DNA of 46,999 bases. It comes from an uncultured Bacteroidota bacterium (GTDB lineage Bacteria; Bacteroidota; Bacteroidia; Flavobacteriales; BACL11). The translations under genes were made by a program, and so were the position numbers. This document shows, one piece after another, positions 77 through 16,430 of the stretch. The stretch's first letter is position 1; each line of letters begins with the position of its first letter. The stretch lies in contig CACHFI010000005.1 of assembly GCA_902579065.1 (NCBI GenBank), positions 1 to 46,999 of the forward strand. Direction: 5' to 3'. The notes beneath the pieces are model-generated. The model was not told where the DNA came from, did no database searches, and was given only the letters and a program-made list of their open reading frames with translations.

Positions 77-92
77 TATAGTGGTTAAAAAA

Positions 93-1559
93 ATGAAAAA
101 AATTTCAATTATAGGAAGCGGCTTCTCTGGTTTAAGTTCAGCAGCCTTCTTAGCAAAAGAAGGGTTTGATGTAACAATACTAGAAAAAAATGAATCTGTT
201 GGTGGTAGAGCTAGATTATTTAAAGAAAAAGGGTATTCTTTCGACATGGGACCAAGCTGGTATTGGATGCCAGAAATTTTTGAAAAATTTTTCAATGAAT
301 TTGATGTTAAAATTAGTGATTTGTATGACTTAAAACAACTTGACCCTGGTTTCAAAATAATTTTTAAGGATAAAGAAATAAACCTTCCATCGTCGTGGAA
401 AGAAACTTGTAATCTTTTTGAAAAACACGAAAAAAATGGAGCTAAGAAACTTGATAAGTTTATGCAAGACGCACAAGTTAAATATTCTATTGGATTAGAA
501 TTTTTATACAACTCCCCAGGATTATCTTTTGGCGAATTATTTAATACTAAAATTATAAAGAACTTAAATAAATTACAGCTTTTAACCTCTTACAGAAATC
601 ATATCAAAAAATACTTTTCAAATCCTTATCTAATAAATATACTTGAGTTTCCAGTGTTATTTTTAGGAACCTCTGCAAAACACACCCCAGCACTATATAG
701 TCTTATGGCATACTCAGGTATAAAACAAGGGACTTTTTATCCAATTGGAGGATTCAATAAGGTTATTAAAAGTATGGAAAAAGTTTGTTTAGATTTAGGA
801 GTTACGATACTCACAAATACTGAAGTAAAAAAAATTAATGTAAAAAAAAGCAAAGCAGTTTCGGTTTCAACAAATAAAAATGAAATTTTATCAGACTTTA
901 TAGTTGCAAGTGCAGATTATGCACATGTTGAAAAAAAACTTCTAGAAAAAAAGCATAGAAATTATTCAAAAGAATATTGGCAAAGCAAAAGTTTTTCTCC
1001 CTCATCACTATTATTTTATTTAGGAATAAATAAAAAGTTAAATAATCTAGATCACCATACCCTTTTTTTTGATGAAGAAATTGAGAAACATAGTAATGAA
1101 ATTTATGAAACTCCAAAATGGCCAAGCAAACCACTTTTTTACACTTGCTGTCCGTCGAAAACAGATCCTAATGTTGCTCCAAAAGGAAAAGAAAATTTAT
1201 TTATTTTGATTCCAATTGCGGCTGGATTAAAAGATTCTGATTTAATAAGAGAAAAATATTTTAAAATAATTATGAAGCGTCTTGAAGGCTATTGTAATGT
1301 TGATATTAAAAAACATATTGAGTATAAAAAAAGTTATTGCATTAATGACTTTATTGAGGATTACAATGCATTTAAAGGAAATGCATATGGATTGGCAAAT
1401 ACATTAATGCAAACTGCAAATTTGAAGCCAAAGATCATAAATAAAAAAGTCAAGAATATATATTATACTGGACAATTAACTGTGCCAGGACCTGGTGTCC
1501 CCCCCTCAATTATTTCCGGCCAATTAGTTGCTGAACAAATTATAAAAAAAAATAAATGA
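93..1559 (+). CDS. crtI: Phytoene desaturase (CrtI-type carotenoid desaturase)
   Basis: N-terminal FAD-binding GSGFSGLSSAAFLAKEGFDVTILEKNESVGGRAR and C-terminal YYTGQLTVPGPGVPPSIISGQLVAEQI motif. ATG at 93 preferred over the GTG at 81 because a TAGATTTG box ends at 76. Confidence 0.95.
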   Translation: MKKISIIGSGFSGLSSAAFLAKEGFDVTILEKNESVGGRARLFKEKGYSFDMGPSWYWMPEIFEKFFNEFDVKISDLYDLKQLDPGFKIIFKDKEINLPSSWKETCNLFEKHEKNGAKKLDKFMQDAQVKYSIGLEFLYNSPGLSFGELFNTKIIKNLNKLQLLTSYRNHIKKYFSNPYLINILEFPVLFLGTSAKHTPALYSLMAYSGIKQGTFYPIGGFNKVIKSMEKVCLDLGVTILTNTEVKKINVKKSKAVSVSTNKNEILSDFIVASADYAHVEKKLLEKKHRNYSKEYWQSKSFSPSSLLFYLGINKKLNNLDHHTLFFDEEIEKHSNEIYETPKWPSKPLFYTCCPSKTDPNVAPKGKENLFILIPIAAGLKDSDLIREKYFKIIMKRLEGYCNVDIKKHIEYKKSYCINDFIEDYNAFKGNAYGLANTLMQTANLKPKIINKKVKNIYYTGQLTVPGPGVPPSIISGQLVAEQIIKKNK

Positions 1560-2392
1560 AAGAAATTTTTGATGAAGTATCATTAAAATGTAGTGAAATT
1601 ACCACGAAACGTTATAGTACGAGTTTCTCACTAGGAATTAAACTTTTAGATAAGTCTATACACAATCCTATATATTCTATTTATGGTTTTGTTCGATTGG
1701 CAGATGAAATAGTTGATAGTTTTCATGAATTTGAGAAAAAAAATCTTTTGCTCAAGTTTAAGGAAGATACCAAAAAATCAATCGCTGAAAAAATAAGCTT
1801 AAACCCTATTCTTAATAGCTTCCAAAACGTTGTTAATAAATACAATATTGAATGGGAACACATTGAACATTTTCTCCAAAGCATGGAAGATGATCTAGAC
1901 AAAAAAAAACACGATGAAAAAAGTTACAAAAAATATATAAAAGGATCCGCTGAGGCAGTAGGCCTAATGTGTTTGAAGGTTTTTTGCAATAACAACTCTT
2001 TACTTTATAATGAACTCAAACAATACGCCATTAACTTAGGCTCTGTTTTTCAAAAAGTAAATTTTATTAGAGATATTAGTGCTGATTACCATGGGCTAAA
2101 AAGAGTATACTTCCCAAATTTAGAAATTGATAATTTCAATGAAAGAGAGAAAGAAAAAATTGAAACAGATATTGAAAATGAATTTCAATCTGCTTTAATT
2201 GGCATCAAAAAACTACCACCTTCATCAAAAAAAGGTGTGTTTCTTGCTTATACTTACTATTATTCTCTTTTTGAAAAAATTAAAGCTACTCCTTCAAGTA
2301 AAGTGATGACAAAACGAATAAGAATTCCTGATTTTTTAAAAATCTTAATTCTTATAAAAGTAGAATTCAAAAGTTTTTTCGGACTCATATGA
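1556..2392 (+). CDS. crtB: Phytoene/squalene synthase
   Basis: YSTSFSLGIKLL, VRLADEIVDSFHE and NFIRDISADYHGLKRVYFP motifs; ATGA overlap with crtI. Confidence 0.93.
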   Translation: MKEIFDEVSLKCSEITTKRYSTSFSLGIKLLDKSIHNPIYSIYGFVRLADEIVDSFHEFEKKNLLLKFKEDTKKSIAEKISLNPILNSFQNVVNKYNIEWEHIEHFLQSMEDDLDKKKHDEKSYKKYIKGSAEAVGLMCLKVFCNNNSLLYNELKQYAINLGSVFQKVNFIRDISADYHGLKRVYFPNLEIDNFNEREKEKIETDIENEFQSALIGIKKLPPSSKKGVFLAYTYYYSLFEKIKATPSSKVMTKRIRIPDFLKILILIKVEFKSFFGLI

Positions 2393-2847
2393 AAAAAATA
2401 TTAGCAATTTTATTAATAGCAACAACTAACTTTGCTTCAGCTCAAAATCTTGAAAAGATTCGTGATGTATATTTTACAAAAGATATAAATCTCTCAAAAT
2501 ACGAATCTCTAAATACCATCATAGACTTAGCTGAACTTAAAAACAATACTATTAATGCATACCTAGGAGCAAATTATTTGCTTTACTGTAAAATATCTAA
2601 AGATGTTTTTGAAAAATTCAGTTATTTTGAAAAAGGAAAAGAAATCATTGAACAAGCAATTAAATTAGAACCAGACAATATAGAAATTAAATTTTTGAGA
2701 TATATAAATCAAATTAACACACCCTGGTTTTTAAATTACAAACAAAATATAAAAGATGATTACCAATTTATAACATCTAACTTACATAAAGTTAAAAATC
2801 AAAAATTAAAAAATAAAATTTTGCAAACCATAATAAACTATAACTAA
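2389..2847 (+). CDS. Small secreted conserved-type protein encoded between crtB and crtZ
   Basis: Signal peptide MKKILAILLIATTNFASAQ; ATGA overlap with crtB and 1-nt overlap with crtZ. Confidence 0.8.
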   Translation: MKKILAILLIATTNFASAQNLEKIRDVYFTKDINLSKYESLNTIIDLAELKNNTINAYLGANYLLYCKISKDVFEKFSYFEKGKEIIEQAIKLEPDNIEIKFLRYINQINTPWFLNYKQNIKDDYQFITSNLHKVKNQKLKNKILQTIINYN

Positions 2848-3284
2848 TGATATTAAATACCATAATAGTAATTTTTACTTTTTTCTTTATGGAATTTGTT
2901 GCTTGGTTTGCTCACAAATACGTTATGCATGGTTTTCTTTGGTTTCTTCATAAAGACCATCATCAAGTTGATCACAACAAAAAATTTCAAAAAAATGATT
3001 ACTTCTTTCTAATATTTGCAATTCCTTCAATTTTATGTTTTGTATATGGCGCTGAAAATTATAGTTACTTATTTTTTATAGGAATTGGAATTGTATTATA
3101 TGGTTTAGCATACTTTATTATTCATGAGATAATTATACACAGAAGGCTTCCTCCCCCGTCAAAAACCAAGAACAAATACATCATTGCAATTAGAAAAGCA
3201 CACAAAATTCACCACAAGAATAGAAATAAAGAACACTGCATTAATTTTGGAATGCTTATTGTACCTAGAAAATACTTTAAATAA
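2847..3284 (+). CDS. crtZ: Beta-carotene hydroxylase
   Basis: His clusters HKYVMHG, HKDHHQVDH and RKAHKIHHKN typical of the fatty acid hydroxylase/CrtZ family. Confidence 0.9.
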   Translation: MILNTIIVIFTFFFMEFVAWFAHKYVMHGFLWFLHKDHHQVDHNKKFQKNDYFFLIFAIPSILCFVYGAENYSYLFFIGIGIVLYGLAYFIIHEIIIHRRLPPPSKTKNKYIIAIRKAHKIHHKNRNKEHCINFGMLIVPRKYFK

Positions 3285-5508: not shown

Positions 5509-6063
5509 GTGTATAACAAAATTTTAGCAAAAAATATAAAGGCTGTATTAAAAGAAATTGGAGAAAATCCCGAAAGAGAAGGATTATTAAAAACTCCAGA
5601 AAGAGTTGCAAAATCACTTGATTTCCTCACTAATGGATATGACTTAGACCCTGCTGAAATATTAAACACGGCAATGTTTAAAGAACAATATAGCCAAATG
5701 GTTTTAGTAAAAGATATTGAGCTTTACTCATTGTGTGAACATCATATGCTGCCTTTTTTTGGAAAAGCGCACGTTGCATATATTCCAAATGGGCATATAG
5801 TTGGTCTAAGTAAAATACCAAGAATAGTTGATGTTTTTGCCAGACGTCTTCAAGTTCAAGAAAGATTAACTGATCAAATTAAAGATTGTATTCAGCAAAC
5901 ACTAAATCCAAAAGGAGTAGCAGTAGTAATTGAAGCTCAACACTTATGCATGCAAATGCGCGGTGTAGAAAAACAACATTCTTCCACAACTTCTTCTGCT
6001 TTTTCTGGCTTATTTTTAAAAGATGAAAAAACAAGGTCAGAATTTATGAATTTAATTAATTAA
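5509..6063 (+). CDS. folE: GTP cyclohydrolase I
   Basis: [50 protein letters not shown] and MRGVEKQ motifs; GTG start. Confidence 0.97.
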
Positions 6064-11121: not shown

Positions 11122-12597
11122 TTATTTCAAAGTATCAAGAAAATTTTGAGCATTTAATAAATGGGTGTTTTTTTTATGATCTTCCATCTTATCAAAAAGA
11201 TTGATCATAAATCTCATTCTTATATTTTTACTCAATTTATCGCGATTTTTATTTATAAATCGCCAATACAAACCATCCCAAATATTATTCCAATTACCAT
11301 TTTTAAAATCACTCATTTTTTTTATGTAATTACTACTGCTGACATACGGCTTACTTGACATCAATCCACCATCAGAAAACTGACTCATTCCATAGATATT
11401 GGGCACCATTACCCAATCATATGCATCTATATAAAGTTCCATAAACCATCTATATACATCATTTGGCTTAATTTCACATAATAACATAAAATTACCAATT
11501 ACCATTAATCTTTCAATATGATGAGAATACGCATTTTTTAATACTTTTTTAATACAATTATCTAATGGAAGAATTCCTGTGTTTGCAGTATAAAATGAAT
11601 TTGGCATAGATCTATTTAGATTGAAGAAATTACTATTTCTCTGCTCAGTTCCTTTGAAGTGATAGACGCCTCTAATAAATTCTCTCCAGCCTATTATTTG
11701 ACGAATAAAACCTTCAAGTGAATTTAATGGAACAGAATTTTGAGCCTTCAATACCTCATCAATAATAATATCTGGGGTTAATAATCCCGCATTCAGCATA
11801 GGAGATAAAATACTGTGATTTAAAAAGTCCTCTTTTTCTAAAATAGCATCTTCATAATCTCCAAATTCTTTAAATCTTTCTTCAATGAAATTTCTCAGCC
11901 ACTTTAAACTTTCATTATGAGTATAAGGATATTTTGGAGTTTGAGATAATACCCCAATATTATTTTTAAATTTAGATGTAACATATTCTACGGCTTCCTC
12001 AAAATACTTATCAGGCTTGGGTGGGTTAATATGTGGGACATTTTTTCCTTTGGGATATTTCTTTCTGTTATCCGAGTCAAAACTCCATTTTTCTCCAATA
12101 GGTTTATCTTTATCTTTTATTAAAATATCCCACTTTTTTCTTTGCTGTATATAAAAAGACGTTTGAAAAAGTTTACTTTTTTTATTTTTAAAAAAAGGCA
12201 AAAGATCACTTTTAGTATTTAAGAAACTTTGATTATTGTGCACTTTAAGTTTTATAGACTTTTCTTCTGTTTTATTTGTAATTCGTTTTTCTAAATAGTT
12301 ATCATCACAAGAAATAATATTAACTATATCCATTTTTTCATTTTCATATTCTTCAAAAAACGTTGTAATATCAGCTGTCTTCTGATGACTTTCAATATAA
12401 ATTACATTTAAACCTTGACTTAGTAAATAATCAAAATAATATTTCATAGAAGCTCTGTGAAATGTCAACTTCTGTTTATGAAAATTATATTGTCTAAAAA
12501 AAAGATGCTCTTCAATAAGAAAAATTGTATTAGATCTGTCAATCCATTCAATATTCTTGAATAATTGATTAGGGAAAATTAGGGTTACGTTTTTCAT
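11122..12597 (-). CDS. Cryptochrome/photolyase-related protein (COG3046/FeS-BCP-type homologue) lacking the FeS cysteine triad
   Basis: LIFPNQLF, NAYSHHIERLMVIGNFMLL, DAYDWVMVPNIYGMSQFSDGGLMSSKPYVSSSNYIKKMSDF and LYWRFI motifs. Start at 12597 (MKNVTLIF) preferred over 12627. Confidence 0.9.
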   Translation of the reverse strand: MKNVTLIFPNQLFKNIEWIDRSNTIFLIEEHLFFRQYNFHKQKLTFHRASMKYYFDYLLSQGLNVIYIESHQKTADITTFFEEYENEKMDIVNIISCDDNYLEKRITNKTEEKSIKLKVHNNQSFLNTKSDLLPFFKNKKSKLFQTSFYIQQRKKWDILIKDKDKPIGEKWSFDSDNRKKYPKGKNVPHINPPKPDKYFEEAVEYVTSKFKNNIGVLSQTPKYPYTHNESLKWLRNFIEERFKEFGDYEDAILEKEDFLNHSILSPMLNAGLLTPDIIIDEVLKAQNSVPLNSLEGFIRQIIGWREFIRGVYHFKGTEQRNSNFFNLNRSMPNSFYTANTGILPLDNCIKKVLKNAYSHHIERLMVIGNFMLLCEIKPNDVYRWFMELYIDAYDWVMVPNIYGMSQFSDGGLMSSKPYVSSSNYIKKMSDFKNGNWNNIWDGLYWRFINKNRDKLSKNIRMRFMINLFDKMEDHKKNTHLLNAQNFLDTLK

Positions 12598-12604
12598 GAC
12601 AAAA

Positions 12605-13234
12605 CTAAAAATTTGGAAAATTATCAAGCTTTACGTGTGGGAAATTTGCAAAATTGGAAATAGTAAAATATTCATTCAAACCGCCTATAGCAACTGAATT
12701 TGCTTTTTCTAAATCAAACATGAAATTGTCTTTTAAATATTCCTTTTTAGTGTTAATTAGCATCACTTCTCCAACTACTAAAGTTGATTCATTAGATTTA
12801 ATTGGAATCACTTCTTTGAGCTCCATGCCTAATTTTAAATTGCTTTCTTTTACAAATGGTGCATAAAAGTCATCAATAAACTCCTCTTCTATTTTACACA
12901 TTTCAAATTCTGAAATATTTTCCTCAAACTTTGCAGAAGTATAGTGTGCTTTTTTTACAAAGTTCTTTTGTATTTGATTTATCGTATATTTTTTTGTTTT
13001 AATAATATTTTCAAGAGTATGCCTACTAACTTTTTTTGATGTTCGAGTAACAAAAGCAATTAATGGAGGATTTGAACCAATATGTACAATGGAGCTAAAA
13101 ATCGCAAGATTAGTGTTGCCATTTAAACTTTTTGTTCCAATAAGATTAGCTGGCTTTAGACCTGTTATTGAATTGATCAACTTTAATCTGTCAATTTTAT
13201 CTAAGTTAGAAATATCACTACTTGAAAAGAACAT
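12605..13234 (-). CDS. Flavin reductase family protein
   Basis: SITGLKPANLIGTKSLNGNTNLAIFSSIVHIGSNPPLIAFVTR: flavin-reductase-like FMN-binding split-barrel pattern. Confidence 0.85.
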   Translation of the reverse strand: MFFSSSDISNLDKIDRLKLINSITGLKPANLIGTKSLNGNTNLAIFSSIVHIGSNPPLIAFVTRTSKKVSRHTLENIIKTKKYTINQIQKNFVKKAHYTSAKFEENISEFEMCKIEEEFIDDFYAPFVKESNLKLGMELKEVIPIKSNESTLVVGEVMLINTKKEYLKDNFMFDLEKANSVAIGGLNEYFTISNFANFPHVKLDNFPNF

Positions 13235-13236
13235 AT

Positions 13237-14316
13237 TTAAAATTTTAATTCCTTTTTAGCTTTTTTCCAAAAGGAAAAAAATGAAGGATAACATCCTTTA
13301 ATAGATGTTAACCAATCTCTAGAATCTTCAATTCCATGATAATTATAATTTAATGGATGTTGTTTATAAAAAATTTTATTGTTGTATTCTTTAACTAAAT
13401 CTTTAAATTCCCCTGTAAAGATTTTAATGTTTGGTATGTTTTTTGATAATCTCAATGAAAATTCAATTGCTTTTTTTCCTACAGGAAATTTTTTAAATAT
13501 GGATGGTTCAAATAATAATATTCGATTACAATCAATGTCAGATTTCCATAAAGGATCCAAATTGTAATAATTATAAACACATAATGGCTTATTGTTGTCA
13601 ATTGTAAATGTATCAGAAACTGGAAGTGCAGCTTGTTTATTGAATATTGTTAATCTATCAAAATTATTTGGGGGTTGAACTTTATCAATATGTTCATAAG
13701 AAATATCAATAAAAGTGTTTTTTTGATTTGTTTTTGAATATTTATTTAGATTATCTTGATTAAATAAATACTTGTTATTGCGACTTGCTCCTGATATCCA
13801 TTGCCAATTTAGACAGTTTGAAGCAATATCTCCATCTAGTAAATGATAATACATCCATTTTGATGGATTATAAAAGTGAGAATTTGAAAAATTACATATT
13901 AATGAAGCGACATACATTCTAACATGATTGTGCATGTATCCTGATTTGTATAAATTATGAATAGAATCATCAATAAATTTGATTCCAGTTTTAGCTTGTT
14001 CAAAAACACTTGGAAAACCATCAAATGAAATATAAGATTGATTTTCATTTTTAAGATTTCTTGTAACGTCCTTTTCTTCAAATATTAATTGAAAATAATC
14101 ACGCCAAGCAAGCTCTTGAACATACTTTTCTATTTCAGAAAATTTATTATATTTTTTTTTTAGAGTATTATAAATTGTCTTAGTAGATATTACTCCTCTA
14201 GAGATATACGGAGATAAAAAAGAAATATTTCCATCAACATAGTTTCTTGTGTAGGAATATTTTTTTGCATCAAAAGAAACTATTGATTCGTTTATAGCCT
14301 TAATTTCAGTTATCAT
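13237..14316 (-). CDS. Photolyase-like FAD-binding domain protein without an N-terminal antenna domain
   Basis: Starts within the FAD domain (YSYTRNYVDGNISFLSPYISRGVIS; GYMHNHVRMYVASLICN; DGDIASNCLNWQWISGASRNNKYLFNQDNLNKYS); C-terminal ~150 aa region with alpha/beta pattern (RILLFEPSIFKKFPVGKKAIEFSLRLSKNIPNIKIFTGEF). Confidence 0.88.
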   Translation of the reverse strand: MITEIKAINESIVSFDAKKYSYTRNYVDGNISFLSPYISRGVISTKTIYNTLKKKYNKFSEIEKYVQELAWRDYFQLIFEEKDVTRNLKNENQSYISFDGFPSVFEQAKTGIKFIDDSIHNLYKSGYMHNHVRMYVASLICNFSNSHFYNPSKWMYYHLLDGDIASNCLNWQWISGASRNNKYLFNQDNLNKYSKTNQKNTFIDISYEHIDKVQPPNNFDRLTIFNKQAALPVSDTFTIDNNKPLCVYNYYNLDPLWKSDIDCNRILLFEPSIFKKFPVGKKAIEFSLRLSKNIPNIKIFTGEFKDLVKEYNNKIFYKQHPLNYNYHGIEDSRDWLTSIKGCYPSFFSFWKKAKKELKF

Positions 14317-14824: not shown

Positions 14825-16108
14825 ATGAAAAAAAGTACAATAACCTGTGACATGGAAGGTCGAATCCTAACCATGAATGATGGTGCAGAACAAGTATTTG
14901 GTTATCCAAAAGAAGAATTAATAGGTAAAAAGAGAGTTTCTATTTTTTCTCCTGGAGAAATAGTTCTACAAAATGTTGAAGGATGGCTAGACGAAGCCGT
15001 AAAAAAAGGAGAATATATTGGAAAAACATACTTCATCAAAAAGAATAAAGAAAAATTTAATGCAAAAATTAGAATAACACCAACTTTTGCTAACGGTAAA
15101 GATCAACCACAAACTGGATACTGCGGAGTTACTGAGGTTATAGATGAAGAAGTGAATGTGCCAATTAATTTTTCAACTAAACTAATAAAAGGCTTAGCAA
15201 TTACTAGAATGCCTTTTACATCAGCATCTATATTACCAATTTTAGCAGTTGGTGCTTATTTTGCTGGTGTTGGTGATGATTTATTTAACATAACAAATTT
15301 TGTGCTTTGTATTTTTGGTGTATTAATTGCACATTTAAGTGTAAATGTTTTAAATGATTATTTTGATGTTAAAGACGGAACAGATGAAGAGAATAATGAT
15401 TATTTTCAACAAGTTTCTGGTGGTAGTAGGGCAATTGAACTTGGTCTCATAACACTATCAGGTACTAAAAAACTTGGTACGATATTAACTTTAATAGCTC
15501 TATTAATTGGAGGTGTTGTTCTAATGTTAACGAACTCTGCAAATACCAGCTCTGTTTTATATATTGCATTAGCAGGACTGTTTTTAGGATATTTCTATAC
15601 AGCTCCTCCTTTAAGACTAGTTGCAAGAAGAGGGTTAGGAGAATTAACAATATTTCTAGCATTTGGACCTCTAATAACTCTAGGAACTGCATTTGCAATT
15701 TTCAATGGAGATTTAATGACATCAGAACATTTAATGAACTGCCTTTACATTGGAATACCAATGGGTCTATTAACAACAAACATTCTATTAATTAATGAAT
15801 TTCCAGATATGTTAAGTGATATTAAAACCAAGAAAAATCACTTAGTAGTAACATTTGGTAAAAAAGCAAGTAGATGGATATACCTTCTAATTCTCGGATT
15901 AGCTATATATACAACACTTATATTAGCTAATAGTATAGGAAATGATTTATTACTAATACCTTTGGCTCTATTAGTAATATATGGTGGTTATATTTTTTCA
16001 ATTCTTTATAAAAAATATGAAACTAGAGAATTAGTTGGAGCAAATTGGGGAACGATAACATTGCAAGCTTTATTCTGTGTTGGTATTTGCATAACTTTAC
16101 TTTTTTAA
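14825..16108 (+). CDS. PAS domain - UbiA/MenA-type prenyltransferase fusion
   Basis: N-terminal PAS (TITCDMEGRILTMNDGAEQVFGYPKEELIGKKRVSIFSPGE...YCGVTEVID), then UbiA core with NDYFDVKDGTD and NEFPDMLSDIKTKKNHLVVTFG motifs. Confidence 0.88.
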   Translation: MKKSTITCDMEGRILTMNDGAEQVFGYPKEELIGKKRVSIFSPGEIVLQNVEGWLDEAVKKGEYIGKTYFIKKNKEKFNAKIRITPTFANGKDQPQTGYCGVTEVIDEEVNVPINFSTKLIKGLAITRMPFTSASILPILAVGAYFAGVGDDLFNITNFVLCIFGVLIAHLSVNVLNDYFDVKDGTDEENNDYFQQVSGGSRAIELGLITLSGTKKLGTILTLIALLIGGVVLMLTNSANTSSVLYIALAGLFLGYFYTAPPLRLVARRGLGELTIFLAFGPLITLGTAFAIFNGDLMTSEHLMNCLYIGIPMGLLTTNILLINEFPDMLSDIKTKKNHLVVTFGKKASRWIYLLILGLAIYTTLILANSIGNDLLLIPLALLVIYGGYIFSILYKKYETRELVGANWGTITLQALFCVGICITLLF

Positions 16109-16109
16109 T

Positions 16110-16430
16110 ATGTTTAGTATTAACAAATGCATTCCTTGTCAGGGAGGAATTCCTCCTCTAAACGAAGAGGAAATTAATAACTTTAAAAAGTTAATTAACT
16201 CTGACTGGTTAGTAGAAGAAAATAAAAAAATAATTAGAGAATTTAATTTCTCTAGTTACATGGAAGGAATTGATTTCACAAATAAAGTTGCAAACTTAGC
16301 TGAAGAAGAGGGTCATCACCCGTACGTACATATTAATTTTAAAACAGTAAAAGTTATTTTATTTACTCACAAAATTGATGGGCTTCATGAAAATGATTTT
16401 TTAATGGCCAAAAAAATTGACAGCTTTTAA
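16110..16430 (+). CDS. 4a-hydroxytetrahydrobiopterin (pterin-4a-carbinolamine) dehydratase
   Basis: CIPCQGGIPPL leader, FTNKVANLAEEEGHHPYVHINFKTVKVILFTHKIDGLHENDFLMAKKID. Confidence 0.93.
   Translation: MFSINKCIPCQGGIPPLNEEEINNFKKLINSDWLVEENKKIIREFNFSSYMEGIDFTNKVANLAEEEGHHPYVHINFKTVKVILFTHKIDGLHENDFLMAKKIDSF

Follow-up and report, generated by a model that had tools for sequence, protein, structure and literature searches.

A set of 110 prokaryotic 6-4 photolyases was previously placed in seven subgroups, and the four cluster cysteines were absent only from subgroup M, which comprises 20 members from several lineages, including PromaPL of Prochlorococcus (PMC9178010). Most of the picocyanobacterial Phr2 proteins also lack the four cysteines, including the subcluster to which Phr2 of Synechococcus RS9916 belongs; the UV-B survival of the RS9916 phr2 mutant was reduced by approximately 1000-fold, and phr2 provided light-dependent protection in E. 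coli (PMC9426592). These reports on PromaPL and Phr2 indicate that cluster-free members are already known and active in vivo. As for the [4Fe-4S] cluster of prokaryotic (6-4) photolyases, its function continues to be described as elusive (PMC12082625).

The window analyzed in the present study, a whole stretch of 46,999 nucleotides from an uncultured Bacteroidota bacterium, carries on the minus strand at positions 11122 to 12597 (stop codon included) an intact gene for a 491-aa protein, which we assign as a putative FeS-free prokaryotic (6-4)-type photolyase based on a PF04244 (DPRP) match, homologues in the PDB, and an AlphaFold2 model. The Pfam search yielded an E value of 4.9e-52 for PF04244 and a weak FAD_binding_7 match under the cut-off. 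The PDB homologues were PhrB, CryB, SePhrB, and the enzymes from Vibrio and Caulobacter (E values of 5e-66 to 8e-81), the homology to the Agrobacterium (6-4) photolyase PhrB (E of about 1e-80) covered the full length, and the AlphaFold2 model (pLDDT 86.7) showed a TM score of 0.92 to 4DJA by query length. The DPRP-type N-terminal domain and the PhrB-like fold, which characterize the prokaryotic (6-4) photolyases as a whole, are both found in this protein.

Relatives were collected as 201 stretches in GTDB contigs, 80 of which were kept, and extra genomes from the same phylum added both types. Among the 161 aligned homologues, 126 had none of the four cluster ligands, 35 had all four, and no intermediates were found, with the proportions carrying no information on abundance because the sampling started from a cluster-free query. 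An initial annotation had assigned the 491-aa protein to the homologues of the FeS-BCP/PhrB group and noted that residues for cluster binding are missing, and this was borne out by the alignment with PhrB, in which the ligands C350, C438, C441, and C454 correspond to Pro344, a Lys, a gap, and an Asn, respectively (0/4 present). The Pro344 codon lies at positions 11566 to 11568 on the minus strand, a position obtained by counting manually from the gene start (12597). The aligned counterpart of the PhrB CxxC...C loop, SSKPYVSSSNYIKKMSDFKNGNWNNIWDGLYWRF (residues 414-447), contains Trp436 and Trp440 and is devoid of Cys; it was correctly assigned to the minus strand at the outset, but its computed span is 11257 to 11358, not 11260 to 11345. 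The shortening of the loop that had been described also holds: the segment from PhrB D436 to Y460 comprises 15 residues in 124/126 cluster-free proteins vs 25 in 33/35 cluster-bearing proteins, a difference of 10 aa between the cluster-free clade and the FeS types. The C350 position is occupied by Pro in 125/126 cluster-free proteins and by Cys in 35/35 cluster-bearing proteins. The proposal that C348 is a surviving upstream ligand was not upheld, as this residue pairs with PhrB V354 (Thr in 86/126 cluster-free proteins) and the partner of C350 is Pro344. Cys374 (nucleotides 11476 to 11478, minus strand) is a Cys in 122 of the 126 cluster-free proteins and an Ala or Thr in most FeS types; to our knowledge, it has no known role. 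Since all four ligands are likewise missing from the remaining 125 cluster-free proteins examined and the replacing residues are conserved, the pattern lies far beyond chance, and the alignment confirms that the 491-aa photolyase is without residues for [4Fe-4S] binding at the family site.

The cluster-free and FeS sets were located on opposite sides of a 100/100 branch in an unrooted IQ-TREE analysis of 84 rows, which answers, within an unrooted tree, the earlier question of whether the absence of the cysteines defines a clade. The cluster-free set is mostly from Bacteroidota and has its own signature residues (P344, W436, W440, and D441 in 125/126 each; M397, R48, and F39 in 126/126 each), and genes of both types were found within one order of this phylum (L097 and L098 being of the FeS type). 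Each of the 39 near-complete genomes carrying the cluster-free form has exactly one DPRP gene, suggesting that the cluster-free form takes the place of the cluster-bearing one. Relatives were not found in viral contigs or phage records. A broken copy of the photolyase gene with many in-frame stops was detected in the same family (G030:C2:16959-18430), and many near relatives are without a copy (L099, L101, and L103-L105, listed together with G030), which suggests that the gene was lost in some lineages. The initial annotation had spoken of a loss in the 491-aa protein itself, and this does not stand because the absence of the ligands defines an old clade and the direction of the change varies with the outgroup. 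Among the findings that it had named as counting against it were closest characterized relatives from a family that never carried the cluster, and the present situation comes near to this, with the nearest relatives and PromaPL/subgroup M all being without the cluster. The earlier interpretation is, thus, partly supported, being right on the cluster and wrong on a protein-specific peculiarity with a changed function: the 491-aa protein is a typical representative of a cluster-free branch of bacterial (6-4) photolyases that is large, old, and known from earlier work, and not a recent oddity.

The photolyase gene is the last of a tight three-gene set on the minus strand. The gene for a flavin reductase-like protein of 209 aa (PF01613 by Pfam; 12605 to 13234) has its stop codon 7 bp before the photolyase gene begins, and 2 bp upstream of this flavin reductase gene lies that for a short photolyase-like protein (13237 to 14316) with the reversed domain order, namely, an N-terminal FAD_binding_7 and a C-terminal alpha/beta domain (AF2 pLDDT 85). 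In many Bacteroidota, relatives of the latter (44-49% identical; 75% in L002) are neighbors of the cluster-free photolyase. Its layout, the FAD domain first and a small alpha/beta domain at the C terminus, resembles that given for the Phr7/ssDNA CPD photolyases (PMC9426592), a family that is separate from the 491-aa photolyase despite its presence in the same gene set. Another photolyase-family or flavin reductase gene was found within 4.5 kb in 46/60 cluster-free loci for which the upstream sequence spans 4 kb or more and in 6/20 FeS-type loci, counts that are not strictly alike because the former includes two opposite-strand cases and the latter is for the same strand only. Elsewhere in the window, a PAS domain is fused in one frame to a UbiA/MenA-type prenyltransferase (14825 to 16108, plus strand), an unusual pairing that is adjoined by a gene for pterin-4a-carbinolamine dehydratase (16110 to 16430), and in L025, relatives of these two genes are separated from the photolyase by approximately 5 kb. 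Genes resembling those for phytoene desaturase, phytoene synthase, and carotene hydroxylase (81 to 3284, plus strand) and GTP cyclohydrolase I (5509 to 6063, plus strand) were recognized by eye from the translations. The region around the photolyase looks light- and pteridine-related.

Regarding the binding of a cluster via other cysteines or residues, the conservation of Cys374 in the clade may be taken as a hint; however, the protein has only three cysteines (97, 348, and 374), and the region equivalent to PhrB 330-480 has four in 1/126 cluster-free proteins and one or none in 49/126, which makes such binding highly improbable. We give virtually no credence to the idea that the gene is decaying into a pseudogene or is an artefact of assembly because the frame is intact, the orthologue in L002 is 71% identical with the same gene order, and the motif is conserved across the clade, in spite of a fragmented source assembly representing a 61.6% complete genome and the broken copy in the relative G030.

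The lesion preference of the group is disputed: the authors of the Phr2 study guessed CPD specificity for cluster-free Phr2 since the characterized 6-4 members all carry the cluster (PMC9426592), whereas the whole group is treated as prokaryotic 6-4 photolyases elsewhere (PMC9178010). The repair of CPDs instead of (6-4) photoproducts by the cluster-free form also receives some weight from the approximately 6-7 of 39 genomes with this form in which no further photolyase exceeded the PF03441 Pfam cut-off, a finding that would be odd if the enzyme repaired (6-4) lesions only. Nevertheless, by manual counting, approximately 32/39 of these genomes have another photolyase-family gene, and a further photolyase is present in the genome to which the window belongs, while the equivalents of PhrB Y424, Y430, L370, and M410 are each kept in 126/126 cluster-free proteins and that of H366 in 125/126, the remaining one being X. 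D179 and D254 of PhrB are likewise kept in the clade. Mutagenesis of PhrB showed that the loss of H366 abolishes repair and that both lesion binding and efficient repair require Y424 and Y430 (PMC4619345); these three residues, by which prokaryotic (6-4) photolyases are recognized, are all found in the 491-aa protein. We regard the CPD specificity of this form as unlikely, and the altered repair function initially suggested for it is also at odds with the retention of H366, Y424, and Y430 throughout the clade. A role as a blue-light photoreceptor (cryptochrome) devoid of repair activity is very unlikely on the same grounds, considering that the cluster-free gene replaces a repair form as a single copy and shares its gene set with other repair flavoproteins. 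Regulatory roles are attributed to the homologue CryB of R. sphaeroides in work cited in PMC9178010, but (6-4) photolyase activity is ascribed to CryB as well, according to the title of a cited reference.

Therefore, we consider that the gene probably encodes a functional prokaryotic (6-4)-type photolyase that depends on FAD and belongs to the cluster-free branch, similar to subgroup M, for which the following mechanism may be proposed. The shortened Trp-containing loop would perform the structural task that the cluster has in PhrB, allowing the protein to fold without it; the insolubility or lack of expression of Cys-ligand mutants of PhrB (PMC4619345) speaks against an easy compensation of this kind. 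As in PhrB, excited FADH- would donate an electron to the lesion, with Tyr418 and Tyr424 binding the lesion and His360 (PhrB H366) serving as the proton donor. The photoreduction of FAD may proceed via a partly different chain. PhrB W390, the importance of which was demonstrated by mutagenesis (PMC4619345), is kept in 125/126 cluster-free proteins (W384 in the 491-aa photolyase), the W342 position is occupied by Tyr in this protein, as it is in 85/126 proteins of the clade, and Met397 takes the place of PhrB E403 beside FAD N5, where Met is also found in most members of the non-ABG subgroups Chl, HC, Ac, and M (PMC9178010). Co-expression with the short photolyase-like protein and the flavin reductase is probable, and the latter could supply reduced flavin.

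The antenna pocket differs from that of PhrB at five positions (E37 to F33, Y40 to Q36, H43 to F39, I51 to H47, and R108 to Y101), with K47 and M55 being retained. The E37-R108 ceiling salt bridge and the Y-V-x-H D loop, which are tied to DMRL in subgroups A and G (antenna-site meanings from PMC9178010), are replaced by F33/Y101 and a Q-Y-N-F loop; since the residues that select the chromophore differ, DMRL appears unlikely as the antenna. 8-HDF was also considered and rejected as a home-made antenna, being unlikely because the CofG half of FO synthase, which the search covered, was not found over the cut-off in 17 genomes. A flavin, a folate, or no antenna remain as options.

The loss of the cluster is the usual assumption. 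When SPL and CPD photolyases were used as the outgroup, the root fell inside the cluster-free set, with long branches being flagged. After the ligand columns and the divergent L136 had been excluded and SPL retained as the only outgroup, the root was located within the FeS set, and a test under this SPL setting did not reject reciprocal monophyly (AU p 0.156). The direction of the change in the cluster depends on the rooting, namely, on the outgroup, rows, and columns. The Bacteroidota cluster-free clade may even represent a photolyase class in its own right, having a distinct antenna chromophore, neither DMRL nor home-made 8-HDF, and a cluster site plugged by Trp and Pro, and it may never have had a cluster; we consider this quite unlikely as a whole. 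If the clade never had the cluster, its sister group would have gained it.

In comparison with the FeS-BCPs, the 491-aa photolyase shares its fold with PhrB (4DJA), CryB (3ZXS), and the Caulobacter (9HNK), Vibrio (7YKN), and SePhrB (8IJY) enzymes, with TM scores of 0.86-0.92 by query length, as well as the domain order and repair residues, and differs from them in the lack of cluster ligands, a loop that is shorter by 10 aa, and other residues in the antenna pocket. As in subgroup M, all four cluster cysteines are absent. Judging from the published descriptions (PMC9178010, PMC9426592), this protein and PromaPL/Phr2 have in common a PhrB-like (DPRP) N-terminal domain and zero FeS cysteines, such that it may be called subgroup M-like on the basis of shared features and not of joint placement in a tree. 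The existence of cluster-free members is already published, and the present results add breadth, namely, Bacteroidota, conserved compensating residues, and the antenna pocket. Because of the all-or-none pattern of the ligands and the single-copy replacement in genomes, this large clade with its repair residues kept may be used as a natural control for the function of the [4Fe-4S] cluster, and it comes mainly from Bacteroidota, in contrast to PromaPL of subgroup M and the picocyanobacterial Phr2 proteins.
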